Source: Mesobacillus sp. S13 (GTDB lineage: Bacteria > Bacillota > Bacilli > Bacillales > Cytobacillaceae). From it: 64,000 nucleotides of DNA. The notes beneath the pieces are model-generated. The model had not been told where the DNA came from. It ran no database searches and saw nothing but the letters and a program-made list of their open reading frames with translations. Both the position numbers and the translations under genes were made by a program. The DNA is taken from NCBI RefSeq assembly GCF_020422885.1, contig NZ_CP084622.1, positions 1,941,001-2,005,000 on the forward strand. The letters run 5' to 3'. Shown here in pieces: positions 4,406 to 44,616 of this stretch; positions within the stretch are counted from its first letter, which is position 1; each line of letters starts with the position of its first letter.

Positions 4406-4432
4406 TTAATATTTTTTTAGATAAGCCGATAA
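4406..4432 (+). promoter_or_regulatory. Sigma-D-like promoter of the redox chemoreceptor
   Basis: TTAA (4406-4409), a 15-bp spacer, then GCCGATAA (4425-4432). The Bacillus sigma-D consensus is TAAA, about 15 bp, GCCGATAT, so the match is 3/4 and 7/8. Sigma-D drives flagellar and chemotaxis genes, which fits the signalling domain encoded downstream. The predicted start is near 4440, leaving a leader of about 30 bases. Confidence 0.6.
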
Positions 4433-4469
4433 TAATCTTTGACACTATGCTGTTAGAGGAGAGATTATT

Positions 4470-5804
4470 TTGGCAAATAGAGGTTTGAACGTAGGCAAGC
4501 CAGCACCTGATTTTGCTTTACCGGGAACGTATAATACAAAATACAGCTTATCAGACTTCGCCGGTCAGCCTATTATTATTGTTTTCTTAAGGGGCACATG
4601 GTGACCTAACTGCCGGAATCAGCTGGTCCAGCTGAATGAACAATATGATTTCTTAAAAGAAAAGGGGATTCAGGTCCTTGGAATTGCCGGGCAAAATATC
4701 ACCGGAATTCAGAATTATGTTGAAAAGGAAGGCATCAAGATTCCGATTCTTTCTGATGAAAAGAGATCAGTGATTAAACAATACGAGGTTTTTGTACCCA
4801 TAAAATGGGACAGTTTCCGGATCGCCATTCCTAGCACATATGTATTGGACGAAAACCATGTGATTCGCTACAGCTATATAGGAGATTCGCAATTTGACCG
4901 TCCAGCTTTGGATGAAATTTTGAATATCGTCCACGAAATCGATGTATCAACTTCTGATGGAGAGGAAGCAGACGAGCGTGGTCAGGCAAATGTATTCGTT
5001 GGTGCTATGAAAGAAACCTTTAATGATATTTTCTTATCCACCCAGACGATTAAACACAGTGTGAATCACAATTTAGTTTCTATTAACGAATTGGAGAACG
5101 AACTAACTGAAAATAAAGAAGCACTAACTCAATTTTTCACCGTGTTTGAACAAATGGAATCAAAGATTAGCAAGTACAGTGGAGCAATTGGAGAGGTAGC
5201 AGAGGGTTCTGTTGCTGTTATTAATGATAATCAGCAGGCTGTCGAGCATATGAATCAAACATCAGAATTGTTAAAGGAACTTGTAAGTCTAACCAAAACC
5301 ATTGGCAGTATCAGCTCTACGATTTCATCGATTTCAGCACAAACGAAAATACTTGCGTTAAATGCTTCCATAGAAGCGGCACGTGCTGGTGAACACGGTA
5401 AGGGATTTTCTGTGGTGGCAAAAGAAGTCGGCAAGCTGGCAGCTGCCTCTGCAGAAGCATCTCAAAATATATCTACACAATTAGAAGGAATAGAGAACAA
5501 AATCAGTTCAAGTTTTTCTTCTTTCACCGACTTTGACGACCTTATGCAGCAGATAGACACGAAGGTGAAATACCAAAATAAAGAGCTCGAAAAGGTTTCA
5601 ACGGGTATCTTATCTATTAGGGCTGATAGTATTTCACTTGCGGAGCGTCTCAGAGAAATCACCGAACAGCAAGAAACCCAGCAACGGAAAATCATTTCAG
5701 TCAAACAACAAGAAATGAATATTTCTTCTGAAATAGATGGAATCCATCACGATATTGATGAAAATAATAGACTGGTGTCTGAGCTCGACAAGAGATATTT
5801 ATAG
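4470..5804 (+). CDS. Peroxiredoxin-like / chemoreceptor fusion, candidate selenoprotein (in-frame TGA at 4602)
   Basis: Read through one TGA, this frame encodes 444 residues from TTG 4470 (AGAGGAGAG at 4455-4463). Residues 1 to about 155 are an AhpC/TSA thioredoxin fold; the catalytic motif reads RGTW-TGA-PNCRNQL, so the stop codon replaces the usual active-site Cys at position 45 and C48 is the second thiol. The rest is the cytoplasmic signalling part of a methyl-accepting chemotaxis protein, with the hairpin tip at about 289-330 (ALNASIEAARAGEHGKGFSVVAKEV). No membrane segment is seen, so it should be soluble. A SECIS-like hairpin follows the TGA and a sigma-D-like promoter precedes the gene. 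Expected role: sensing peroxide or thiol state and signalling to CheA. Alternative: a nonsense mutation, leaving a separate truncated product from about 4770. The frame is otherwise intact. Confidence 0.72.
4602..4635 (+). promoter_or_regulatory. Candidate bacterial SECIS element after TGA
   Basis: TGA is at 4602-4604. TCAGCT (4619-4624) pairs perfectly with AGCTGA (4630-4635) around the loop GGTCC (4625-4629). The loop starts 20 bases after the TGA. The E. coli fdhF element has a GGUCU apical loop at almost the same distance, with the loop G and U contacted by SelB. Hairpin and distance are read directly; function is inferred. Confidence 0.62.
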
Positions 5805-5809
5805 GCAAT

Positions 5810-5843
5810 AGTAAAGCCCCTATATTGTAATAGGGGCTTTACT
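5810..5843. terminator. Bidirectional terminator
   Basis: AGTAAAGCCCCTA (5810-5822) pairs perfectly with TAGGGGCTTTACT (5831-5843), with A/T tracts on both sides. It lies between two convergent genes and can serve both. Confidence 0.85.
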
Positions 5844-5846
5844 TCT

Positions 5847-6686
5847 TTATTTAGCAGCCTCGTTATCCAGATAAGACCTCAATGTTTGCTGTAATGTACC
5901 TTTGGTTTCTGCCTTTTGGTCAAAAGTGATTCCTGTATGAATCATTTTTCTTACAAGTTCAGGGCGCATTCCAGTTATTACTGCGTTCGAACCCATCATG
6001 GAAACACCACTCAATACTTTTTGGAAGTGGGAAATGACATTCATTTCCATGTCCGCAATCCCTGAAAGGTCCATAATCAAGGTTTGGACCTTAAGTCTTG
6101 CAATATCCATTAGGATCTTTTCTTCAATAATATGCATTCTGTAGTCATCAATCATGCCGATTAGTGGCAGAACAGCAACCGTGGCACTGACTGGAATGAT
6201 CGGAACAGATAAATGTTCAACCAATTTCCTTTGCGAGTTAAGCAGTTCGTCTTTGTACTTTGTATAAGTCAGGAAGAAGGTATTCAGGAATTGGTCTACT
6301 TGGTCATTGATCCTCTTTTCAAGGTGGAAAAACTCCTCGCGGTCAGAAAATCTATTATGCAATTGATCATATTTGTTTAGGAAGTGCCATAAAGTTCGAC
6401 GGATGGCCTGAATCCACTCCAGCTTGAAAGCAACAGTCAGTGAATGTTCTGCCCAAGCAATCCCTTCTTGTTCTGCAAAAGCAACCAGGTTCTCTTCCTG
6501 CTGCTCCACTATGTAAACAATTAACTTCTCAGCGTTCTTTAAAAGATCAATATTTCCTTTTTGGAGAATCTCATTGATTTTAGAAGCAACATTCACTGCT
6601 TCCGACAACAAGTGCTGCTCAAAAAGTTCCCTATTGGCTTTAATGAAATCGGTCACTTCATCTCTTTGGTTAAAGGTTGATTCCAT
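5847..6686 (-). CDS. RsbR-type stressosome protein with STAS domain
   Basis: A 279-residue protein. The N-terminal 150 residues are helical, as in the globin-like sensor half of RsbR paralogues. The C-terminal STAS domain (about 165-275) starts with VPIIPVSATVAVLPLIGMID and contains VQTLIMDLSGI and the GMRPELVRKMI segment typical of RsbR/RsbS. In Bacillus such proteins form the stressosome that sequesters RsbT and gates the sigma-B response. No rsbS or rsbT lies nearby, as is usual for stand-alone RsbR paralogues. GGGAGTG precedes the ATG. Confidence 0.85.
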   Translation of the reverse strand: MESTFNQRDEVTDFIKANRELFEQHLLSEAVNVASKINEILQKGNIDLLKNAEKLIVYIVEQQEENLVAFAEQEGIAWAEHSLTVAFKLEWIQAIRRTLWHFLNKYDQLHNRFSDREEFFHLEKRINDQVDQFLNTFFLTYTKYKDELLNSQRKLVEHLSVPIIPVSATVAVLPLIGMIDDYRMHIIEEKILMDIARLKVQTLIMDLSGIADMEMNVISHFQKVLSGVSMMGSNAVITGMRPELVRKMIHTGITFDQKAETKGTLQQTLRSYLDNEAAK

Positions 6687-34142: not shown

Positions 34143-35075
34143 GTGTTATTAGAAGATGTTTTAAAAGAGTATTTGTACTATTGTCAGGCAAAAGGTTTCA
34201 CGCCTAAGACAATGAAAAACAAGAATCAAGAGTTGAAGCAACTGAGGTATTTCCTCATCGAAAAGAGAGGGATTACAGAATTAGAGAGTATTTCAGCCTT
34301 TGATTTAAACGCATATGTAAGACTTAAGCAGAAAGATGGTCTGCAGCCTCAATCTATAGTTTCAATGTTCAAAATGATCAAAGCATTTTTCAACTGGTGT
34401 GAAAGGGAAGGTTACATAAAGGATAACTTTGCACAAAAAATAATCCTTCCTAAAATACCTAAGAAAATTTTAAAAGGATTCACAACAAAAGAAATTCAAT
34501 TAATGATCGATGTTTTTACTTATGGTGATTATTTTGAGGCAAGAAACAAGGCGATTATTGCAATTTTAGCTGATACAGGAATTCGAGCAATGGAGTTAAG
34601 AGGCCTATTAAGTATTAATGTAAAAGAGACTTCAATTTTAGTTTATGGAAAAGGAAATAAAGAGAGGTATGTGTTTATATCTCCTGCATTAAAACGAATT
34701 CTAATTAAATATGAAAGGATAAAAAAACATTATTTTAAAGATAAAGATACATCAGATCACTACTTTTTATCTTATAGAGGTACAGATATATCTCATGTTG
34801 GCCTAGATAATATTATTAAAATGGCAGGAAAGCGAGCAGGAATAGAGGGGAAAAGGGTATCTCCTCACAGTTTCAGACACTTCTTCTCGGTTCAATGTTT
34901 GCTGAATGGAATAGATATTTACACGCTCAGTAAGCTTCTGGGCCATTCTGAAATACAAACTACTCAAAGGTATTTACAATCACTAGAGGACTTTGAATTG
35001 ATAAATAATGCAATGCCATCTTCCCCACTAATGAATATCAACAAGAACAACAGGCTAAGTACTATAAATTCATAA
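34143..35075 (+). CDS. Tyrosine integrase
   Basis: A 310-residue XerC/D-like recombinase: N-terminal SAM-like core-binding domain, then the catalytic domain with R (TGIRAMELRG, about 148), HxxR (SPHSFRHFF, about 240), H (LLGHSEIQTT) and the nucleophile Tyr in TTQRYLQ (about 278). Starts at GTG 34143 after AAAGGTGG. It should integrate and excise the element next to yneF. No Cys or stop interrupts it. Confidence 0.92.
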   Translation: MLLEDVLKEYLYYCQAKGFTPKTMKNKNQELKQLRYFLIEKRGITELESISAFDLNAYVRLKQKDGLQPQSIVSMFKMIKAFFNWCEREGYIKDNFAQKIILPKIPKKILKGFTTKEIQLMIDVFTYGDYFEARNKAIIAILADTGIRAMELRGLLSINVKETSILVYGKGNKERYVFISPALKRILIKYERIKKHYFKDKDTSDHYFLSYRGTDISHVGLDNIIKMAGKRAGIEGKRVSPHSFRHFFSVQCLLNGIDIYTLSKLLGHSEIQTTQRYLQSLEDFELINNAMPSSPLMNINKNNRLSTINS

Positions 35076-35088
35076 GGGAGTGTATAAC

Positions 35089-35232
35089 ATGCAACCAGAA
35101 TCAACTGAAAAGGCACTGAATAGCGTTATAAAGTTTTGTGAATCGATCATCATGTTAGAGGAAAGGCAGTCAGATGAGACAATAGAGACTGCTGAGAAGG
35201 TATTAAAAATTATCAGAAAGGAACTAAATTAA
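35089..35232 (+). CDS. Small acidic protein, 47 aa
   Basis: A helical protein (STEKALNSVIKFCESIIM ... ETAEKVLKIIRKELN) starting at ATG 35089, 14 bases after the integrase, with GGGAG upstream. It may be a recombination directionality factor by position, but no helix-turn-helix is evident. An imperfect hairpin (GAACCAGTG/CACTGATTC, 35248-35272) follows. Confidence 0.5.
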   Translation: MQPESTEKALNSVIKFCESIIMLEERQSDETIETAEKVLKIIRKELN

Positions 35233-35394
35233 GCACAAAAAAAGAGAACCAGTGCTACCAACACTGATTCCCTAAACGCTCTTTATCCATAGTCAACTCG
35301 CTAAAACTGAATACGGATTTATCATGCCTTCATTTTACTAAAAAAAATATGTAAATGCAAGGTCTAGTTTCCTATTGTCTTTTTTGGTAAATCC

Positions 35395-35780
35395 AGTGTG
35401 AGAAGCCGTTAAGCACACTATAATAAATCACGTCAGGTATTGATCCAGCCATAGCGTAAACTGGAGATAGGTAAGCAGTCAGTTCCCTATTACTGACCTT
35501 ATCGAATGGAGAAAGCTGCCATTAAGTGCTGTCGAAGGAAGGTCATTCGCAGATATGCGAGCAAGACAAGCTACAAGTACCAATATGGGAAACTGTCAGG
35601 GATGATTGAAACAGTAGGCTTGTTAGGATGAATAATCCACGACTAATAGGGTTGAATACATACGGATACAAACACTATACAATTCAAGTCGCTTGCCTAT
35701 GTTCATTTGATTTTTTGTCATTTGAACATAGGCAACAACTTTGATCCAGCCGTTTCAAACCTCTGCCAATTCAAGCAAAA
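35395..35780 (+). ncRNA. Candidate large structured non-coding RNA
   Basis: No credible frame lies between 35233 and 35867. The segment holds many local stems: AGTGTG/CACACT, TCCAG/CTGGA, GTCAGT/ACTGAC, TCGCA/TGCGA, ACAAGC-TAC/GTAGGCTTGT, GGAT/ATCC and a perfect 12-bp stem TTGCCTATGTTC/GAACATAGGCAA (35693-35734). TTGATCCAGCC occurs at 35440 and again at 35741. A TATAAT lies at 35419-35424. Length and place, after the integrase, would suit a phage ornate RNA or an origin; no known class is recognised. Confidence 0.45.
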
Positions 35781-35867
35781 CCCAAAAAACAAAAGCAAGG
35801 TGAAAAGTACAAAATAAAAGGAAATAACTTCCTGATGTCGAAATAAGTAGACGAAGGGGGTGATTTA

Positions 35868-36182
35868 ATGAAACAGAAGGAAATTGAAGAATTAAAAAAT
35901 TGGAGAGAAGAGTTAGATAGTGAAATCAACGAATTAGAAGACGAACTAAAAAATATTGAAGAAGAACTGGAAAGAATAAAAGTAAGACACAGTCTAGCAA
36001 ATAAAGCTTATAGAAGAAGCAATGATGAATTCTTAAATGAAGAGTATCTAAAACCTCTTTATCAGGAATTACAGGATTTACAACAGAAATTAGATAGGAA
36101 GACAGTTGAAAACCGGAAAAAAGTCTATGCTTTAAATTCGTTAATTGACAATATAGATACAAAAATTAAAGTCAATTTATAA
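35868..36182 (+). CDS. Coiled-coil protein, 104 aa
   Basis: Almost entirely charged heptad-like sequence (KEIEELKNWREELDSEINEL ... LQDLQQKLDRKTVENRKKV). AAGGGGGTG precedes ATG 35868. Probably dimeric; no function can be given. Confidence 0.65.
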   Translation: MKQKEIEELKNWREELDSEINELEDELKNIEEELERIKVRHSLANKAYRRSNDEFLNEEYLKPLYQELQDLQQKLDRKTVENRKKVYALNSLIDNIDTKIKVNL

Positions 36183-36187
36183 GGATG

Positions 36188-36219
36188 AAACCCACTGGTT
36201 ATTGATCAGTGGGTTTTTC
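36188..36219. terminator. Bidirectional terminator
   Basis: AAACCCACTG (36188-36197) pairs with CAGTGGGTTT (36207-36216). It separates the coiled-coil gene from the convergent XRE gene, overlapping the end of the latter. Confidence 0.85.
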
Positions 36220-36429
36220 GTTGTCTTCAACTATTTCAAGTATTTCATTAAAGTCTTCAATCTTAAGTGTATCCATTGCTTTGAGTAAATTTGATAATTG
36301 TATTCGATCATACTTATTGTTTACCAACTGACTTACTGTAGCTTCTCTAAGGCCTGATTCAATTGCAAACTGTTTTTGACTCTTATCCTTAATGTGCTTA
36401 TCAAGTTTCACTACAATTTTTCTAGTCAT
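36199..36429 (-). CDS. XRE-family regulator
   Basis: A 76-residue helix-turn-helix protein (KQFAIESGLREATVSQLVNNK), of the small HTH type without an effector domain. It is divergent from the early operon and probably controls it through the palindrome at 36474-36487. Candidate lysogeny or copy-control repressor. Confidence 0.82.
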   Translation of the reverse strand: MTRKIVVKLDKHIKDKSQKQFAIESGLREATVSQLVNNKYDRIQLSNLLKAMDTLKIEDFNEILEIVEDNEKPTDQ

Positions 36430-36473
36430 GTTTTTACCCCTAATTTATCTTTTTTTATATTATAACATAAAAT

Positions 36474-36516
36474 TACACATTTGTGTATTGACCATTATTA
36501 CACGTTACAGTAATAT
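36474..36516 (+). promoter_or_regulatory. Early promoter with adjacent operator palindrome
   Basis: TACACA-TT-TGTGTA (36474-36487) directly abuts TTGACC (36488-36493), followed by a 17-bp spacer and TAATAT (36511-36516). On the minus strand a TATAAT near 36459 would place the same palindrome at the -35 of the XRE gene, so both directions could be repressed. Confidence 0.65.
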
Positions 36517-36559
36517 GTAATTAAGAAAGTTATTACGGATTGAGGGGAGGACAGTTCAA

Positions 36560-36739
36560 GTGAAAACTCTTCCAGATAGAATTGCATACTACCTTCGAAA
36601 AGTAGCAGATAAAGGTTCGATACACCCAGCCAAGAAACAACCTGCAGCTTACAAATTCAGACATCAACGATTAATGCTTTATAAGAAGTTAATGCATGAA
36701 GAAATTGAAAGGAGTGGTTATCGTGGATCACGCAATTAA
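36560..36739 (+). CDS. Small basic protein, 59 aa
   Basis: Starts at GTG 36560 after AGGGGAGG. Basic and helical (LPDRIAYYLRKVADKGSIHP ... KFRHQRLMLYKKLMHEEIER). First gene of the early operon; overlaps the next by 17 bases. No family is recognised. Confidence 0.55.
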   Translation: MKTLPDRIAYYLRKVADKGSIHPAKKQPAAYKFRHQRLMLYKKLMHEEIERSGYRGSRN

Positions 36740-36962
36740 CAGCCTTCGGATTTATTACGACATTGCCTTGGATGAGTTATATGAAGAATGGAAGTCAGGC
36801 AAATACCTAAAGTTAACTGATTGTCCATCCTTTAAAGAAGCTAATGCTTATCGTTCAGCTATGAATGTGTTGATTAAGGCCTGTTATTTACCTGAATATG
36901 TGAAAGATTACTTAGTCGCTCCATTATCAAAAGAAATGAAGTTTAAATCAGGGGAGTATTGA
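36723..36962 (+). CDS. Phage early protein, 79 aa
   Basis: Starts at GTG 36723 after AAAGGAGTGG (an ATG at 36696 is possible but its ribosome site is worse). Soluble, with DELYEEWKSGKYLKLTDCPS. No family is recognised. Confidence 0.6.
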   Translation: MDHAINSLRIYYDIALDELYEEWKSGKYLKLTDCPSFKEANAYRSAMNVLIKACYLPEYVKDYLVAPLSKEMKFKSGEY

Positions 36963-37082
36963 AAATGACACTCGCATGGATTTTCAATTTACTTTCATTG
37001 TCGGTTTGTTTGTCGGTTTGGATTCAAGTGGGGCTTTGACTGATAAAAAAATAATAATCTACATAAAAGGGAGATCGAGAAA

Positions 37083-37310
37083 ATGAGAAACTTAATGGTA
37101 AACAAAATGGGGCAAGTTGTTTTAAATGTTAGCACGAAATCTGATGCCAGCTTAGACCAGTCATTAATCATCGGTGGAAAATTAATCCTAGCACTGCCAA
37201 CAGGGGAACAAATCGAAATGTGCGTTGATGAAGTACTAGAAATGGATTTACAGGCCTACGACATCGAAACTGGATTACCTATATACAACGAAACGGATAT
37301 AAACCTTTAA
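37083..37310 (+). CDS. Phage early protein, 75 aa
   Basis: Beta-rich short protein with LIIGGKLILALPTGEQIEM. GGGAG precedes ATG 37083. No family is recognised. Confidence 0.55.
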   Translation: MRNLMVNKMGQVVLNVSTKSDASLDQSLIIGGKLILALPTGEQIEMCVDEVLEMDLQAYDIETGLPIYNETDINL

Positions 37311-37340
37311 TCACTTAATCAGACCTGGGAGGTAAATAAA

Positions 37341-37592
37341 ATGTTAGTAAAGGAAGCATCACAAGAACGCTACATCTTCAATGATCCAGCAGAGAACATG
37401 AGAAGGTTAATAGTGGTCATGGAGTATGTACTACAGGGAAACCTTGAGGATTTTATTTACTTCCTGCAAGACTTAATCGATGTGGATGAGTTTTTAGAGT
37501 TCAAGGAAACGATTTTAAAAATGATTGATGAGTTAGAGGTCAAGGAAGAAGAAATACAGAGTCTATTAGCAGTAAAATTACCAGCTTCATAA
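37341..37592 (+). CDS. Phage early protein, 83 aa
   Basis: Acidic helical protein (MRRLIVVMEYVLQGNLEDFI). GGGAGG precedes ATG 37341. Unknown function. Confidence 0.55.
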   Translation: MLVKEASQERYIFNDPAENMRRLIVVMEYVLQGNLEDFIYFLQDLIDVDEFLEFKETILKMIDELEVKEEEIQSLLAVKLPAS

Positions 37593-37608
37593 CTTGGGGG
37601 AATACAAA

Positions 37609-37902
37609 TTGAACAATGTACTTAAATTTAACCTACACAAGCCAAAACAAAGCGATATTAAGCCGATAGAAGGTTTAGTAGACTCTACCATTAAAAATAA
37701 TATCGAGCCTCTAACGGCTATTCTGAGCGTTCTAAAAGAGGATGAAAAAATTTATGCAGTCCAGAGTTTTGTATATCGTATATTGACTGCAATGATGAAT
37801 GAGAAGGATAAGGATTCAATTGGGGAATGGATCAGCAGTGGTACTATATTTTTACTCCAAGCTAAACTGGAGGAAGGATTCAAAAAATCTCTGAATATCT
37901 GA
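37609..37902 (+). CDS. Phage early protein, 97 aa
   Basis: Starts at TTG 37609 after GGGGGA. Mainly helical (IEPLTAILSVLKEDEKIYAVQ). No family is recognised. Confidence 0.5.
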   Translation: MNNVLKFNLHKPKQSDIKPIEGLVDSTIKNNIEPLTAILSVLKEDEKIYAVQSFVYRILTAMMNEKDKDSIGEWISSGTIFLLQAKLEEGFKKSLNI

Positions 37903-37921
37903 ATTTATTTTCCAGATTTTG

Positions 37922-38021
37922 TTGACCACACTTTAAAAACTTAATATAATAGATAATGTATACCTATCTAAACGACTAATAACCCTCCTTTTGCTCTTTT
38001 TTCTTGGAGCAAGAGGGTTTA
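37922..38021 (+). promoter_or_regulatory. Strong promoter followed by a leader hairpin
   Basis: TTGACC (37922-37927), 17 bp, TATAAT (37945-37950). About 30 bases after the start lies a stem pairing AACCCTC-TTGCTC with GAGCAA-GAGGGTT (about 37981-38021) with a three-base bulge. The long leader to the helicase operon may be attenuated here, or the unit may encode a short RNA. Confidence 0.6.
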
Positions 38022-38146
38022 CTTTAGTATTCAATTTCCAACGTATGTATAGACCTATCCATTATTAATCCTTGTATACATATTATCATGGCTAAAATAG
38101 TCCGTCAACACTTTTTAAGGGCATAAGAAAATTATACCCCCAATAA

Positions 38147-38261
38147 ATTTGAAAGGGGGTGATTCTGGGAAATAATACATTCTAATAAAATACTAATTTT
38201 ATCGTAAATTATCTATGCATATTCCGATAAAAACAAAATTTTATCAGGAATTGAAAGGGGG
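38147..38261. repeat. Repeats in the helicase leader
   Basis: The string TTGAAAGGGGGTGAT occurs twice, at about 38147 and 38247; only the second precedes a good frame. Between them TTTTATCG (38197-38204) and CGATAAAA (38225-38232) form an inverted repeat with 20 bases between. It could bind a regulator; nothing else is seen in 38022-38263. Confidence 0.5.
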
Positions 38262-38263
38262 TG

Positions 38264-38458
38264 ATGAAAATGAATTTAACACGTAACCATTTCTTTTACT
38301 GTTACAGCAAATTTGTCTCGGATTATCTTACTGGTCAAGGAATTTTCTATATTCATATCGGTATGGAGCCAAAGAGTGGAAAACTTTACTCACTATATTA
38401 CATAAATGATGAATTGCAAGAAGCTCTAAAACAATACAAATTATCTAAGCAAGTGTAA
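38264..38458 (+). CDS. DUF5659-like small protein
   Basis: About 62-64 residues (ATG 38264 or 38270; AAAGGGGGTG favours the latter). FFYCYSKFVSDYLTGQGIFY ... YYINDELQEALKQYK resembles the DUF5659-type phage/plasmid proteins. Function unknown. Confidence 0.55.
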   Translation: MKMNLTRNHFFYCYSKFVSDYLTGQGIFYIHIGMEPKSGKLYSLYYINDELQEALKQYKLSKQV

Positions 38459-38505
38459 ATAATTCAATATTAAAGAATCTATAGAAATAATCGGAGGAAA
38501 AATTT

Positions 38506-40125
38506 ATGGGAGCACTAAATTTACAATGGGTGTCAGACTCCATTGGTTATGATTATAAAAGATGGAAACAAGGCGATACAGTTTTAATATCAGCTCAAAC
38601 TGGAACTGGAAAGACATACTTTATAAAAGAGGTATTGCTAGATCATATGGATTCAGGCCAAAGGTTGCTATTTGTTTGTAACAGAACAAATTTAAAGAGG
38701 CAACTTAAAAAGGACTTGCTGAAAAAGTATAAGCAACCAATTCCTGAAACATTAAATGAGTTGGACGATGTAACAACAATTGCAGATAAAGTCACCATTA
38801 CATCATATCACGCAATTAGCAATGCGATTCAGCAAGAAATATATGATCCTAATGCAAGTAAGAGTGATTTTAACTTATACGATTACATAGTTTTTGATGA
38901 ATGTCATTTCATATTTTCAGATGGGAACTTTAACAATAAAACAAGGTTTGCATATAAGAAAGTAGTCCATGATTATTACCCACATATTGTGAAAATATTC
39001 ATATCTGCTACCATGCATGAGATAAAAGAACCAATAATCAGGAGTGTAGAAAAAATAAAGAATAATGGATTTGGCTTAGACGTTCCTACAGTCCACGAAT
39101 ATAGTACGGGGAATGATTATAGTTACGTTAAACCATTATACTTCAGCAATATCGATTCTATTATCAATCTTATTAAGAATGATTCTTCCAATGAAAAATG
39201 GCTAGTATTCATCAGTGATATTAATAGGGATGGAAACAAGTTGCTTGAAGAATTAGGTGAAGATAGATGCTCGCTTATTAAGTCAGGGACTAAAAGTGAT
39301 GAATTAAACTACATAATAAACAACAGCAAATTCACTAAAAAAGTATTGGTTAGCACTAAAGCGATGGATAACGGTATCAATATAAAAGACAGTAAACTAA
39401 AGAATATAGTAATCATGACTTGGGATCGAATAACTTTTATTCAAATGCTTGGACGAAAAAGAATAGATATTGATAATCCTGAAGAAGTTAACCTTTATAT
39501 CCCTACAAGATTCAAAAAGAGTTTTTTGTCTAAACTAAAAACCTACCGACAAAAGCAGGTTGAAGTTGAATTATTAGATTCAAACAAGATGGAATTCTAT
39601 AAAAAATATGATAATGATTTAAAGGATTTCAATGGAATGAATGATGTATTTTATAGAGATGTTACCACAGGGGAAATAAAACATAACTTGGTAGGATGTA
39701 AAAGGTTGTATGAGGATATAAAATTTGCAGAACACATGATCAATGCTTTCGATATAGATAAGAAGTTTGCCTATATCCATGAGCAACTTAGCTGGTTAGG
39801 TATAAGTGATGATGAACCAGAAGAAAATTTAATTGAAGATGTGGTGATTAAAGAAGAAGTGATTTCTTTGGAAATGTATCTTGATACTATAGCTGGTCAA
39901 AAACTATTTGATGAGGAGCAGCATAAACTAAGTGACCTTATAATCAAAGAATTAATAACATTATCATCACAAACGGATTATAGGACTAAGAAATTAAAAC
40001 CTTCAACACTTGAATCTATAGTCAGAAATCAACTGGAGTTACCATTTGCGGTAAGTAAACCAAAGCAAGAAACATCAGGAGTAATGAGAAAAAAGCGATA
40101 CATAATTATTACCCGAATTAAATAA
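38506..40125 (+). CDS. SF2 DEAD/DEAH-box helicase
   Basis: A 539-residue protein. Walker A SAQTGTGKT at about 27-36, DECH at about 136, SAT motif III (FISATMHE), STKAMDNGINIKD and MLGRKRID (motif VI-like). The C-terminal 150 residues match nothing known. It is the only clear replication-type enzyme in the element; no primase, polymerase or helicase loader is seen. GGAGG precedes ATG 38506. Confidence 0.82.
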   Translation: MGALNLQWVSDSIGYDYKRWKQGDTVLISAQTGTGKTYFIKEVLLDHMDSGQRLLFVCNRTNLKRQLKKDLLKKYKQPIPETLNELDDVTTIADKVTITSYHAISNAIQQEIYDPNASKSDFNLYDYIVFDECHFIFSDGNFNNKTRFAYKKVVHDYYPHIVKIFISATMHEIKEPIIRSVEKIKNNGFGLDVPTVHEYSTGNDYSYVKPLYFSNIDSIINLIKNDSSNEKWLVFISDINRDGNKLLEELGEDRCSLIKSGTKSDELNYIINNSKFTKKVLVSTKAMDNGINIKDSKLKNIVIMTWDRITFIQMLGRKRIDIDNPEEVNLYIPTRFKKSFLSKLKTYRQKQVEVELLDSNKMEFYKKYDNDLKDFNGMNDVFYRDVTTGEIKHNLVGCKRLYEDIKFAEHMINAFDIDKKFAYIHEQLSWLGISDDEPEENLIEDVVIKEEVISLEMYLDTIAGQKLFDEEQHKLSDLIIKELITLSSQTDYRTKKLKPSTLESIVRNQLELPFAVSKPKQETSGVMRKKRYIIITRIK

Positions 40126-40128
40126 AAT

Positions 40129-40577
40129 GCCCCACTTTTACTAAATATCTATATATATAAATAAAAAGTAAAACTGGGACAAATACATAATATTTAAGTA
40201 GTCTATTCCATAAAAATTAGTATCAAGTGGATAAATGTAGTGACCGTTAGGGAACGAAATTTATACGCTTGGCGGGTGAACTTTCAAAGCGTAGCGAAGA
40301 AAGTGAGGGCGAGCTAGCCCTGATTCTTTAAAAACATCGCCCCTAGGAAAATACATTGTTCGCAAAGAGAGCTCACAAAGTATTTCCTTTCCCCCCGGGG
40401 AATTAAAAAATTTTTGAATTTGAAAGGAGTGATTAAATTGTAGTAATCAATCAGCAGTTAAATGTAAATATCCCAATATCACATCATAGATTTTGCCATG
40501 TATCCAACAGGAGTAGGGATCAAGTGCAATATACATCGAGTAGACGACTAAAACGGAATTAAAAGGAGAGTTCTAAA
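40129..40577 (+). other. GC-rich structured non-coding segment: candidate origin or RNA
   Basis: No frame fits here. A long hairpin CCCACTTTTACT/AGTAAAACTGGG (one mismatch) opens it, followed by ATAAAT/ATTTAT, AGGGC/GCCCT, GGGCGA/TCGCCC and GGAAA-ATAC/GTATTTCC pairs and CCCCCGGGG. It is markedly more GC-rich than the surrounding element. Placed between the helicase and the unknown 555-residue protein, it could be the replication origin or a structured RNA. Confidence 0.45.
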
Positions 40578-40679
40578 ATGAATTACTCAATCAATCTATT
40601 AAAAAATAATTATATTAATATTAATTGGAGGATTAATAATGACATATTTAAAGGGAAGAGATATTGCAAAATGGAATAA
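40578..40679 (+). CDS. Possible leader peptide, 33 aa
   Basis: ATG 40578 has AAAAGGAGAG just upstream. The frame ends at 40679, inside the next gene in another frame, whose GGAGG lies within it. Translational coupling is likely; the Asn/Ile-rich peptide itself has no recognisable function. Confidence 0.4.
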   Translation: MNYSINLLKNNYININWRINNDIFKGKRYCKME

Positions 40680-42306
40680 TGATCAGTTGGAAATGAGAAA
40701 GGATTTACCTAACTTATACATTTCAATGAAACAGGCCGCAAATGGCAATCCATATAATTTGGAATTGCAATTCATGATGAAACGGAAGCTTGAAGTATGG
40801 AAGATTGATGGAAGGCCACAGAATGCTGTCCATGAGTATATTGTGTTTATGGATAAAAAGTTAAATCACTTACTGATCACACTTAAACAAAAGTATTGTG
40901 AATCAAAAGGTAATACAATGAGTGCTCATTATAATGGATCAAAGCTAGGAGTTAAAGCATCGATGAAAATTTTTGATGCCTGGGAGATTGAAAGCTGGTT
41001 AACCAATTACATAATGTCATTTCCAAATGGATTTGTTGATGTAAATGAAAGTATCTCTGTTAGTCTCCCCACCCTTGAAAAGTTTGTTGGTGAAACAGAG
41101 TCACATACATATAATAAATTAATTAATTACATAAATTCATCTTTTGAAAAGCAAATCATCATTCCTAAGTTGAATCAGGATAAGCATGTAAAGAGATTGG
41201 TTAAGGATGGTAGGGTTCATAATATAAAAAATGACATAGAGTTGGTATCTTTTGAGGATATTATTACACCTCAGAAGAATGATTCATCTGGTGAGGACAC
41301 TGAAATTTCCTTTTATGAGTTGATGAGAAATGAACCAAGTAAGCATACATATGGCAGACAAGAAACCAGTAACTTTGTGTTCGAGAACTACAAAGATATT
41401 ATGACTCAGGATCAATTGGATAAGTTTAATACCATTCTCAAAGCAGTGGAGATGGGTGAAGTTAATATTAATGAATTATTCCATTCGGTAATTGAAAATA
41501 AGCTTAAATTAGAGGCAATAGGCGAAATATTATTTCCTGGGAAGAGTAATAACTACTGGCAACCAGCAGTCCGTAATATGCTTAAATCAATGAGAAGTAG
41601 GATGGATAAAGAGTTGGGCAGAAGAGGACTTACTAAGGTTGAGTTGAGAAGTGATTATGCTCCATTTCCTAACCTACCTGCCAGCGAGAATAGGAAGTAT
41701 AGAGAGTATCAGATTGATAAAAAGTATCTCATTAAGGATTTCGATTTTGAGTTGAATGAGTTGTATGCAGATGTGCCTACATATAAGAATGAGCAGGTAA
41801 TAAACATTGAGAATATTGAGAAAGTACATAATGGTGAATTAACGGTTAGTGATTTGATTAAAAAGTATGAAATACATAAGCTAGTTGCAGTATCAAAGAA
41901 TGGAGCATTATCCTTTTATAAACCTTCTGCAGATGGCAATGTGATTATTGATCCAGATGAAAAGGTTAAGTTGTTTGATTGTCACTGCAAGGGATTATTG
42001 GAACGAGTCTTTAATGGTTACATAAAGTTTAATGAAGTTGATGGGTGGATGATTCCGGTCAATACAGATAAGTTAAATCCATTAACTGTTAAAGAATACA
42101 ACATACTTAAACATGGTTCATTGATGTTTCTTTATCAGGATAATCAAAAGGTTGTAATGGATATTATTAAGAAGAGAATTAACTTAATAAAATTCAACAT
42201 CGGCAGCCATCATGAATTATTGGATCATACATATTTAGTATCAAATGATAGGGAATATAAATACATAAACCAAACAAATGTAAAATCTATACTTAATATT
42301 AAGTGA
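40639..42306 (+). CDS. Unrecognised 555-residue protein
   Basis: GGAGG precedes ATG 40639. A soluble protein with N-terminal AKWNNDQLEMRKDLPNLYIS and no clear nucleotide-binding, zinc or nuclease motif. By size and place beside the helicase and the structured segment it is the best candidate for a replication initiator, but that is inference from context only. Confidence 0.7.
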   Translation: MTYLKGRDIAKWNNDQLEMRKDLPNLYISMKQAANGNPYNLELQFMMKRKLEVWKIDGRPQNAVHEYIVFMDKKLNHLLITLKQKYCESKGNTMSAHYNGSKLGVKASMKIFDAWEIESWLTNYIMSFPNGFVDVNESISVSLPTLEKFVGETESHTYNKLINYINSSFEKQIIIPKLNQDKHVKRLVKDGRVHNIKNDIELVSFEDIITPQKNDSSGEDTEISFYELMRNEPSKHTYGRQETSNFVFENYKDIMTQDQLDKFNTILKAVEMGEVNINELFHSVIENKLKLEAIGEILFPGKSNNYWQPAVRNMLKSMRSRMDKELGRRGLTKVELRSDYAPFPNLPASENRKYREYQIDKKYLIKDFDFELNELYADVPTYKNEQVINIENIEKVHNGELTVSDLIKKYEIHKLVAVSKNGALSFYKPSADGNVIIDPDEKVKLFDCHCKGLLERVFNGYIKFNEVDGWMIPVNTDKLNPLTVKEYNILKHGSLMFLYQDNQKVVMDIIKKRINLIKFNIGSHHELLDHTYLVSNDREYKYINQTNVKSILNIK

Positions 42307-42336
42307 AAATTATTATTAAATAGTTATATATATTAA

Positions 42337-42446
42337 GGGAAGGGGTAATCCTCTTCCCACTTCCATTTTGTTGTTGTGTACACGAGCACAACTTCAATAC
42401 TGACTATGTAACTAGTTGAGGCAGTCCTTTGTGGCTGTCTCTTATT
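42337..42446 (+). terminator. Hairpin cluster after the 555-residue protein
   Basis: GGGAAG/CTTCCC (42337-42358), GTTGT/ACAAC (about 42370-42392) and GAGGCAG/CTGTCTC before a T-rich run (about 42418-42446). The last one looks like a terminator. Confidence 0.5.
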
Positions 42447-42513
42447 TTTGTCTAATTCTAAATTTATTTAATAAACATTTTTACTGAATTAATTTATAGA
42501 AAGTGAGGGAGTG

Positions 42514-42729
42514 ATGATGACTCGAAACGAACGATTAGAACTGATACTTGAAATTAAAAAGAAGGAATTGCGAGTTAAGGATATTGCACAGCAAATGGGA
42601 GTATCTCCAAGTTTGCTAAGTCAGTTCCTAAATTCACGATGCAATATGTCTCATGATAAGGAGATAAAGTTAAAACAAATTGTAAATCAGGCCAAGGAAT
42701 TTGAATGGCAGAAGGTTTATATAGAATAA
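42514..42729 (+). CDS. XRE-family regulator
   Basis: About 71 residues: LRVKDIAQQMGVSPSLLSQFLNSR is a helix-turn-helix. Starts at ATG 42514 or 42517 (GAGGGAGTG upstream). It probably regulates the following run of small genes. Confidence 0.75.
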   Translation: MMTRNERLELILEIKKKELRVKDIAQQMGVSPSLLSQFLNSRCNMSHDKEIKLKQIVNQAKEFEWQKVYIE

Positions 42730-42986
42730 AATCACGTCCGTATCGCTCACCATGTGATGAGTGCCAATGCGTTATCTCGGACTTTAAAAATAAGGTAATG
42801 CGGTTAATATCAAGTTGTTCAGACTTAATATTGATCCTCCTTTTGAATATGTATGATTATAACCTTCATGAGGGGCTGGATGATTTACTCGAACGGAACG
42901 AGTTCCAGCCTTTGATCGTGAGGGAAATTAGAATAGGGTGTGTTGTATGTGCAAAAAGAGAATCAAATGGTAGTACAAATGACTGA
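42705..42986 (+). CDS. Cys-rich small protein, 93 aa
   Basis: Overlaps the XRE gene by 25 bases. Two Cys pairs, CDEC near residue 17 and CVVC near residue 79, could bind zinc. Middle part hydrophobic (LISSCSDLILILLLNMY). No family is recognised; a weak ribosome site lowers confidence. Confidence 0.45.
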   Translation: MAEGLYRIKSRPYRSPCDECQCVISDFKNKVMRLISSCSDLILILLLNMYDYNLHEGLDDLLERNEFQPLIVREIRIGCVVCAKRESNGSTND

Positions 42987-43182
42987 GAGCGATTTAGATG
43001 ATTTAATTTACTATACATCGTTAAGGGCAACAAAACGTGCATTAGACAGGCACTTTAATGGCTTACTTCCTTTCCTTACAAAAATGAATGACGACTTAGA
43101 ATTAATTATTAAAGAGCAGGAATACATAAAGACTTTCTTAAAGATGCAGCTTGAGCAAAAGAAAGATGGAACCCATGATTAA
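42940..43182 (+). CDS. Small helical protein, 80 aa
   Basis: Overlaps both neighbours. TTG 42940, GTG 42946 and ATG 42967 are possible starts, none with a strong ribosome site. Contains a long helix (LELIIKEQEYIKTFLKMQLEQKK). Unknown function. Confidence 0.45.
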   Translation: MLYVQKENQMVVQMTESDLDDLIYYTSLRATKRALDRHFNGLLPFLTKMNDDLELIIKEQEYIKTFLKMQLEQKKDGTHD

Positions 43183-43972
43183 AAAGTATTGTCCAAGATG
43201 CTTGGTTATACATAAACAAATTGATATTTGTCCGAGTTGTTTGGTTGACCTAAAAGAGATCCAAATAAATAATCAAAAAGGGGTAAAGTGTTTGAGGTTA
43301 TTCAAATGTTATGACAAGTATGCTATTGATTGTCCTGATCAAGTGATTGTTGTATTTGCAGAAAATGAAAAAAAGGCACTGAGGAAAGTTGCTGACATAC
43401 ATAAAAAACTAGATGTATATGAAACACCAGTAAAGACGGTTTTAAATAATTTTAAAGTTGAAGAGATATTTGCACCAAAGGAATGTAATGCTTATGTTGC
43501 TTATTCTAGAGACATGTCTAGCGTTGATGATGTTCAGATTGTATTTGTTCCATTTGAAGTGCAGGATATTGAGTCTTATATAATGGATCAGTTGATTGAA
43601 GCAGAAAGCCAGGAAGAGTTATTTAGGGAGTTTGTTATTGATAAGGGAATCAATATGAGTTTTAATGAGATGTTTTATTGTGATGATAAAGGCTGGATAT
43701 TCAGTTATGAGCCTCCATTACGGTTAAGAGAAGACATTGAAGCTAAGTTAATGTTTGAGGACATAAGTGAAGGTGAATTTATAGATGAATTTTGGCTTAC
43801 AAGTGTTAGTAAATTCTTTGAGGATAAATATTATTTTAAACAATTCTTCGAATACATAACTACAAATTCTGAAGCTGACTTTGATGAAGGCTTCTTTTTT
43901 TACGTCTGTAAAAAGTTAATGAAGCAAGGTGACTGGACTGTATATGAGGATTTAAGAGAGGTGGAATATTAA
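43166..43972 (+). CDS. Zinc-ribbon protein, 268 aa
   Basis: The N-terminus has a zinc ribbon of the type CPRC-x12-CPSC, followed by an acidic, helical protein without other motifs. ATG 43175 is an alternative start. Overlaps the previous gene. No family is recognised. Confidence 0.6.
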   Translation: MEPMIKKYCPRCLVIHKQIDICPSCLVDLKEIQINNQKGVKCLRLFKCYDKYAIDCPDQVIVVFAENEKKALRKVADIHKKLDVYETPVKTVLNNFKVEEIFAPKECNAYVAYSRDMSSVDDVQIVFVPFEVQDIESYIMDQLIEAESQEELFREFVIDKGINMSFNEMFYCDDKGWIFSYEPPLRLREDIEAKLMFEDISEGEFIDEFWLTSVSKFFEDKYYFKQFFEYITTNSEADFDEGFFFYVCKKLMKQGDWTVYEDLREVEY

Positions 43973-43974
43973 AA

Positions 43975-44202
43975 ATGATTAATGACAAAGTTTTTGATTG
44001 TTGCAAAGAGATTTATCTAAGAATGGCAAATGGTGACTCAATGGATGAAGCTAAGATGAATACAATTTATCTTGAAGACTTAACTAAAGATGAAAAGAAG
44101 AATATCGAAGATACAGTGTTCATGTTGAGGAAAACGTTTGGTTTAAGTGATATCCAAGCTTATAGATTAATTTTTATTGGTTACGGTAAGGGGTTGAATT
44201 GA
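43975..44202 (+). CDS. Small protein, 75 aa
   Basis: GAGGTGG precedes ATG 43975. Helical, soluble (EDLTKDEKKNIEDTVFMLRK). Its stop TGA shares bases with the next ATG (ATGA). Confidence 0.55.
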   Translation: MINDKVFDCCKEIYLRMANGDSMDEAKMNTIYLEDLTKDEKKNIEDTVFMLRKTFGLSDIQAYRLIFIGYGKGLN

Positions 44203-44539: not shown

Positions 44540-44616
44540 CAGGCTGTAGCTCAATAGTAGAGCAACCTATTATCCCATGATAGTGTTTGTTACTGGTGCA
44601 AATCCAGTCAGCCTGA
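44540..44616 (+). tRNA. Degenerate tRNA, Gly-like (anticodon CCC)
   Basis: A cloverleaf can be drawn over 77 bases: acceptor CAGGCTG/CAGCCTG (7 bp, perfect), D stem GCTC/GAGC with a 7-base loop AATAGTA, anticodon stem CTATT/GATAG with loop ATCCCAT (T33, CCC, A37), T stem ACTGG/CCAGT (perfect) with loop TGCAAAT. Deviations: no GG in the D loop, G instead of T at the second T-loop position, three bases between D and anticodon stems, an eight-base variable region, and no encoded CCA. The D-arm resembles Gly tRNAs. It may be a decayed phage tRNA or a tRNA-like structure. Confidence 0.55.

Follow-up and report, generated by a model that had tools for sequence, protein, structure and literature searches.

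A gene of Mesobacillus sp. S13 is predicted to encode a soluble chemoreceptor that is also a selenoprotein, and that would report the oxidation of a selenocysteine-cysteine pair (U45 and C48) to CheA and CheW; we place the probability of this reading at about three in four. We read the gene as a selenoprotein because its UGA stands at the first Cys of the CxxC motif of its homologues, the Sec machinery is present in the genome, a hairpin following the codon is conserved, and the sequences on both flanks of the codon are selected as one protein. All coordinates are positions within the window, the whole 64,000-nt stretch of contig NZ_CP084622.1 that was analysed.

An in-frame TGA codon shared across families

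A single frame extends from TTG 4470 to TAG 5804, and its sole in-frame stop is the TGA at 4602-4604, which is codon 45 (Table 1). The first-pass annotation had described one frame interrupted only by a TGA in an RGTW-x-PNC motif, a description that proved exact on re-reading. With the TGA translated as Sec the motif becomes FLRGTW-U-PNCRNQ and the product has 444 residues, among which U45 and C48 are the only Cys or Sec residues.

Table 1. Features of the Sec-redoxin/MCP gene and its surroundings, in window coordinates.
Feature	Position	Strand	Basis
Sigma-D-like promoter TTAA-N15-GCCGATAA	4406..4432	+	Only exact match in window
Shine-Dalgarno AGGAG, 8 nt 5' of TTG 4470	4457..4461	+	AGAGGAGAG kept in most aligned Mesobacillus relatives
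Predicted Sec-redoxin/MCP gene, 444 residues	4470..5804	+	TGA common to 15 genomes, Cys in homologues
AhpC/TSA (redoxin) domain, residues 8-134	4491..4871	+	PF00578 E 2.6e-31, 108.6 bits; Bcp and ResA folds
TGA codon 45, proposed Sec of U45-P-N-C48	4602..4604	+	Same codon in 15 genomes; Cys in P0028-P0038, L091, L092, L097-L100
Candidate SECIS hairpin TCAGCT-GGTCC-AGCTGA	4619..4635	+	CAGCT-N5-AGCTG in 15/15 TGA genes and L089 redoxin of same genome
MCP signalling hairpin, about residues 168-443	4971..5798	+	PF00015 E 9.9e-26 at residues 253-408; AlphaFold2 helix 168-443
Perfect inverted repeat 3' of stop, likely terminator	5811..5842	+	GTAAAGCCCCTAT / ATAGGGGCTTTAC, read directly from sequence

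Codon 45 is TGA in 15 genomes (a pseudogene in one case) from four families (f1, f33, f30 and f80): 11 of the 21 genomes of the genus, G163 in the same family, G224 and G294 (the pseudogene) in other families of the order, and G742 elsewhere in the class. Within the genus these 11 genomes are the ones that match at E<=1e-50, all with the TGA at codon 45; nine of their copies are full-length, the copy in G009 is without most of the MCP half, and that in G011 is a solo redoxin. The remaining 10 of the 21 genomes have no match at this threshold, and the gene is therefore accessory. The named strains close to the window's genome are Bacillus sp. ISL-37, Bacillus sp. ISL-55 and Mesobacillus selenatarsenatis SF-1, and the last of these also has the gene. 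Across the family 13 of 193 genomes match, those outside the genus being G163, whose copy is full-length with the TGA, and G161, where only the MCP part is present, at a contig end. An even draw from the order yielded nine matches among 397 genomes at E<=1e-45; G224 (with TGA) and G294 were new, the latter with a decayed copy that contains several stops and frame breaks and has kept the TGA. In an even draw from the class, for which the Paenibacillus Cys protein P0033 served as the query, 10 of 398 genomes matched at E<=1e-45, and the new ones contributed a TGA fusion (G742), two Cys fusions (G666 and G683) and four Cys solo redoxins. The G742 protein (L093) is 45% identical to P0033 and 40% identical to the window's protein. 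The retention of the TGA goes beyond chance, because the same codon is kept in relatives down to 40% protein identity.

The homologues that lack the TGA have cysteine in its place. A database search gave 7,417 matches, of which the best 120 are listed; scoring covered the 7,985 candidates with the most words in common. Among the matches listed are full-length fusions of 441-448 aa (P0028-P0038), 41-45% identical to the window's protein over 97-100%; they come from hosts that include Paenibacillus, Brevibacillus, Tumebacillus and Fictibacillus, and in 11 of these 11 listed fusions residue 45 is Cys. The alignment of homologues that the first-pass annotation had proposed as a check gave Cys at the TGA position in these fusions and in L091, L092 and L097-L100. 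The Cys fusions, some of them named 'redoxin domain-containing protein', have the same architecture as the window's protein and differ from it in having Cys at residue 45; no account of them was found in the literature searched. The Cys solo homologues occur in four genomes from one genus of another family. In a tree of the redoxin domain (30 rows, with L068 as a pseudogene, L031 from G006 and the shortened database proteins left out) the Sec rows and the Cys rows would each need one change, but the dividing branch has a support of 45/54.

Other proteins among the matches listed (P0002-P0027 and P0040-P0042) are only 313-384 aa long, and P0002, P0004, P0013, P0016, P0017, P0025 and P0040-P0042 start downstream of residue 45, at varying starts, as would be expected of genes cut at the TGA. 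One of the short proteins, P0005, comes from Bacillus sp. ISL-55, and in the DNA of that strain (L022) the complete read-through protein is encoded.

Short proteins of this kind are what one would see if the TGA were a true stop, which would leave a 44-residue peptide and an MCP-only protein of 344 aa from GTG 4770, as in some public records. Database proteins of 344 aa do exist (e.g., P0003 and P0005), and codon 101 of the window's gene is indeed GTG. However, codon 101 is GTA, GTC or GTT, hence no start, in five of the 14 TGA genes listed (L029-L032 and L035), and the annotated starts vary between records (P0002, P0004, P0013 and P0016); on these two grounds we rejected a true stop with a downstream GTG start, which we regard as very unlikely. 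A true stop would also split the redoxin domain at its active site, and it is at odds with the selection acting on the gene. Compared with seven Mesobacillus relatives, the window's gene has dN/dS values of 0.06-0.15 for codons 1-44 and of 0.10-0.18 for codons 46-100; being well below 1, these values indicate purifying selection before as well as after the TGA. The same values speak against a nonsense pseudogene or a sequencing error. The decayed copy in G294 and the loss of most of the MCP half in G009 are in line with decay, but the identical TGA is present in 15 genomes, no TAA or TAG occurs at that position among them, and the frame is otherwise open in 12 full-length copies. Given the 15 genomes and the low dN/dS, we rejected a pseudogene or lone nonsense change and give it next to no credence. 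The first-pass annotation had named a lone lineage-specific nonsense change without a conserved hairpin as the finding that would speak against Sec; the TGA in 15 genomes, the Cys in homologues and the invariant hairpin indicate otherwise.

Reading of the UGA as some other residue, for example Trp, through read-through or reassignment is extremely unlikely: the Sec machinery is complete in the window's genome, the homologous residue is Cys and not Trp, and TGA terminates four of the 20 window ORFs of at least 250 aa, for which reason a genome-wide reassignment of TGA was rejected. Recoding of the TGA at 4602-4604 as Sec is, from these comparisons, very likely.

Selenocysteine machinery and the candidate SECIS hairpin

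The genome search for selA, selB, selC and selD that had been suggested as a check found all four in the window's genome (G000), which is a single contig of 4.8 Mb. The scores are 562 bits for selA (cut-off 267.9), 364.5 bits for selB (cut-off 242.25), 400.9 bits for selD (cut-off 125) and 67.1 bits for tRNA-Sec (cut-off 47; anticodon TCA according to ARAGORN), where the Rfam tRNA-Sec model also exceeds its cut-off in five of 14 control genomes. The selA and selD genes lie back to back at L087:7968-10920, and selD contains an in-frame TGA of its own (KAG-U-GC). Further in-frame TGA codons were noted in two other redoxin-like genes of this genome. One, at L089:755-1276 on the minus strand (G000 2371254-2371775), encodes a redoxin (GVG-U-DFC) that looks lipoprotein-like by eye and matches PF00578 with 72.3 bits, with no NCBIfam match at E<=1e-10. 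The other, at L088:1170-1798 on the minus strand (G000 423169-423797), encodes a SelL-related/AhpC-TSA_2 protein (HLG-U-PIC) that scores 95.9 bits against NF040769, under the cut-off of 120.

SelB is present in 14 of the 15 TGA genomes, the exception being the 66%-complete G009, where selA was matched. Sec use is widespread in the window's family, where 170 of 193 genomes have SelB, and SelB therefore does not discriminate within the family. Among the six Cys genomes SelB is clear in G683, is represented by a marginal partial match in G666 (23.3 bits, cut-off 23.2), and was found in none of the other four; outside the window's family the contrast between TGA and Cys genomes in SelB is thus suggestive. 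The tRNA-Sec model scored over its cut-off in four of seven genomes tested (G000, G011, G163 and G294) and under it in G009 (66% complete), G161 (85%) and G224. The G224 assembly is scored as 100% complete, consists of 200 contigs and has selA and selB; no tRNA-Sec was found among the 150 of its 166 candidates that were scored, the two best ones examined are tRNA-Ser according to ARAGORN, and none of the candidates lies on its 6.1-kb selA/selB contig.

Bacterial SECIS elements are hairpins located just 3' of the UGA with a G/U-bearing apical loop. In the window's gene the stem is formed by CAGCT (4620-4624) and AGCTG (4630-4634), with T4619-A4635 as an extra pair, and encloses the loop GGTCC (4625-4629); the stem begins 15 nt after the UGA and the loop 20 nt after it, so that the perfect stem with a GGTCC loop noted in the first pass was recovered on re-reading. 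The place and sequence of the loop are presumably close to those of the fdhF SECIS loop. The loops among the 15 TGA genes read GGTCC, GGTTC, AGTTC, AGTTG or CGGTG. All five Watson-Crick pairs are formed in 14 of 14 TGA genes tested (L068 left out), and an alignment of 13 TGA genes with the L089 redoxin, whose own hairpin, GCAGCT-GGTCG-AGCTGC, lies at the same distance from its TGA, shows no variation in any of the ten stem columns; with every stem column invariant, no compensatory change was found in the stem. The six Cys genes have four, three, one, one, one and one of the Watson-Crick pairs, none of them having all five; in L091, the gene with four, counting a single G-U wobble as a pair makes the stem complete.

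In folding energy the hairpin does not stand out: its z value in the window is -1.43, with 16 of 200 shuffles as stable, and z lies at about -1.0 to -1.5 for three TGA genes. Under synonymous shuffling a five-pair stem arises with P of 0.08-0.23 per gene (about 0.08 for the window's gene), a chance raised by the codons for QLx(Q/E)L, which lend themselves to this stem. Over ten loci the six-codon windows from codons 54-56 reach a synonymous-codon identity of 1.0 versus a mean of 0.61 for codons 1-150; windows above 0.8 are also seen at codons 7-16 and 22-27, so that the hairpin is not the only strongly conserved part. The evidential weight of the hairpin, whose role as a SECIS element is a prediction, lies in its conservation across divergent lineages.

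Domains, promoter and locus

Judged by its sequence, the protein is a soluble MCP-type receptor with an N-terminal redoxin domain. The match to PF00578 is far above the cut-off of 26 bits, and the matching domain bears the UxxC motif (U-P-N-C); PF08534 (Redoxin) is also matched over the Pfam cut-off, with 96 bits. The signalling half matches PF00015 with 91 bits (cut-off 34.6), and its tip is invariant in 20 sequences at T292, K293, L295, L297-N298-A299-S300-I301-E302, R305, G307, E308, G310, G312 and F313. The highest mean Kyte-Doolittle hydropathy over 19 residues is 0.99, and therefore no segment looks transmembrane. No NCBIfam model scored above its cut-off for the fusion among 25 of 30 matches listed. 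The AlphaFold2 model, computed from a 20-sequence alignment (mean pLDDT 80), has a thioredoxin-like fold to residue 157 followed by a helix over residues 168-443; its overall arrangement is unreliable because pTM is 0.36.

The first-pass annotation had called the N-terminal half a peroxiredoxin, which holds at the level of the fold and the Pfam family. The motif PxxxTxx(C/U), which a passage in PMC13188914 gives as the peroxiredoxin active site, is absent, the active site reading FLRGTWU, and the redoxin part matches structures of ResA-type thiol-disulfide oxidoreductases and Bcp-type peroxiredoxins about equally.

The sigma-D consensus consists of a TAAA-like -35 element and GCCGATAA at -10, about 15 nt apart. 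Upstream of the window's gene TTAA (4406-4409) is followed after 15 nt by GCCGATAA (4425-4432); with up to one mismatch, two such sites occur in the window versus 0.42 expected. We searched for TTAA/TAAA-N14-16-GCCGATA(A/T) within 140 nt upstream of the genes and aligned 13 upstream regions. The site precedes 11 of the 15 TGA genes, namely 10 of the 11 in the genus and the one in G163; within 140 nt upstream it is absent in G011, G224, G294, G742 and all six Cys genes. The sigma-D-like promoter reported in the first pass was confirmed, and within the window's family it is kept before 11 of 12 TGA genes, with G011 as the exception. In Mesobacillus the gene probably shares its transcription with the motility regulon through this sigma-D-type promoter.

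Around the solo Sec redoxin of G011 the neighbours of the window's locus are kept on both sides, with SRPBCC-like, ArsR-like and SNF2-like genes (by eye) before it and a gene for a STAS-domain protein of 279 aa after it; neither the MCP half nor the sigma-D-like site is present there. The G009 copy (L033) has only the tail of the MCP hairpin left and keeps the sigma-D-like site, therefore the link between the MCP half and the site is not strict. In the window the 279-aa STAS-domain protein is encoded at 5847-6686 on the minus strand, convergent with the Sec-redoxin/MCP gene. Elsewhere in the window, positions 34143-44000 look like an integrated mobile element, with a tyrosine-recombinase-like gene (34143-35075, by eye) followed by helicase-like and unknown genes, and a tRNA-like sequence (Rfam tRNA, 46 bits, without an ARAGORN call) is located at 44540-44616 on the plus strand.

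Proposed function and its implications

Under the proposed mechanism, SelB with Sec-tRNA(Sec) would bind the hairpin and insert Sec45, and synthesis of the full-length receptor would require available selenium. Peroxide, some other oxidant, or a disulfide or persulfide partner would oxidise Sec45, and Cys48 would resolve the oxidised Sec45 to a selenenylsulfide, a redox pair suggested by the motif. The resulting change in the redoxin domain would be passed into the helical hairpin of the MCP half, which together with CheW and CheA would alter swimming. Peroxide sensing and the steering of motility are thus proposed roles; because the PxxxTxxU motif is missing, disulfide or persulfide partners are as possible as peroxide. 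CheW domains were found in eight of eight genomes tested. The window's genome has four CheW-domain matches, one of them in a frame of 697 aa that is followed directly by a CheW frame of 162 aa, which we infer to be a cheA-cheW arrangement.

Alternatively, the gene may encode a selenoprotein in which the redoxin half does not sense the stimulus: it would be an enzyme brought into chemoreceptor arrays to reduce peroxide or disulfides, or a quality-control partner. Such a role would fit the solo Sec redoxin of G011 at this locus and the solo Cys homologues in four genomes, all from a single genus in a different family; the promoter evidence is mixed, since G011 is without the sigma-D-like site and G009, with most of its MCP half gone, has it. 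However, an N-terminal input followed by a C-terminal MCP hairpin is the order that sensory receptors have, and the fusion has been conserved as a single protein; both arguments are indirect, and we regard the enzyme reading as unlikely. We favour the chemoreceptor that reports the oxidation of U45 and C48.

Soluble chemoreceptors with a single N-terminal sensor and an MCP hairpin, as here, are known from the globin-coupled HemAT type, whose sensor is a haem globin and which contains no Sec. Oxidant receptors of the CZB-domain or TlpD type resemble our proposal in being soluble and in sensing oxidants through thiols; they differ in their zinc-Cys switch and their fold. The ResA and Bcp-type proteins use Cys. 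Their structures (PDB 4nmu and 2h1b; 3hjp) have a Trx fold and are among the best sequence and fold matches, although this likeness extends to the redoxin part only, and they are not chemoreceptors. PMC8262984 concerns a HOCl sensor and bears on the CZB-domain/TlpD-type comparison. Table 1 of PMC13188914 (2026) gives 119 selenoprotein families and subfamilies, with no chemotaxis receptor among those in the table. It includes Prx-like UxxC/UxxU thiol:disulfide oxidoreductases (PF00578) and a redoxin with UxxC (PF08534). The Prx-like selenoproteins share the Pfam domain and UxxC with the window's protein but are entered in that table under PF00578 alone, whereas in the present gene this domain forms the N-terminal half of a chemoreceptor; the PF08534 selenoprotein has the same domain and motif class, and the table has no chemoreceptor fusion for it. 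By titles and the openings of abstracts, we found no report of a selenoprotein or redoxin chemoreceptor in the literature searched, which covers only a minority of subscription papers and bioRxiv preprints. What we propose is a known domain chemistry and a known receptor type in an architecture that we did not find described, with Sec as the proposed input residue.

A broader reading, which we offer as a tentative possibility and consider rather doubtful in its entirety, is that Bacilli possess redoxin-coupled chemoreceptors as a class, with Sec and Cys versions, and that in the Sec version the U45-C48 selenenylsulfide is itself the stimulus switch. The receptor would then gate taxis by the selenium supply, because its translation needs selenium, and Mesobacillus may be steered by the redox effect of metalloid oxyanions. 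M. selenatarsenatis respires selenate.

The gene is an example of one cut short by annotation. The natural Sec and Cys versions, together with the solo redoxin of G011, make it possible to compare directly what a sensor gains from Sec. For most prokaryotic selenoproteins the presumed role is in redox chemistry; a chemoreceptor with Sec, if our reading is true, would place selenium chemistry directly in bacterial behaviour.
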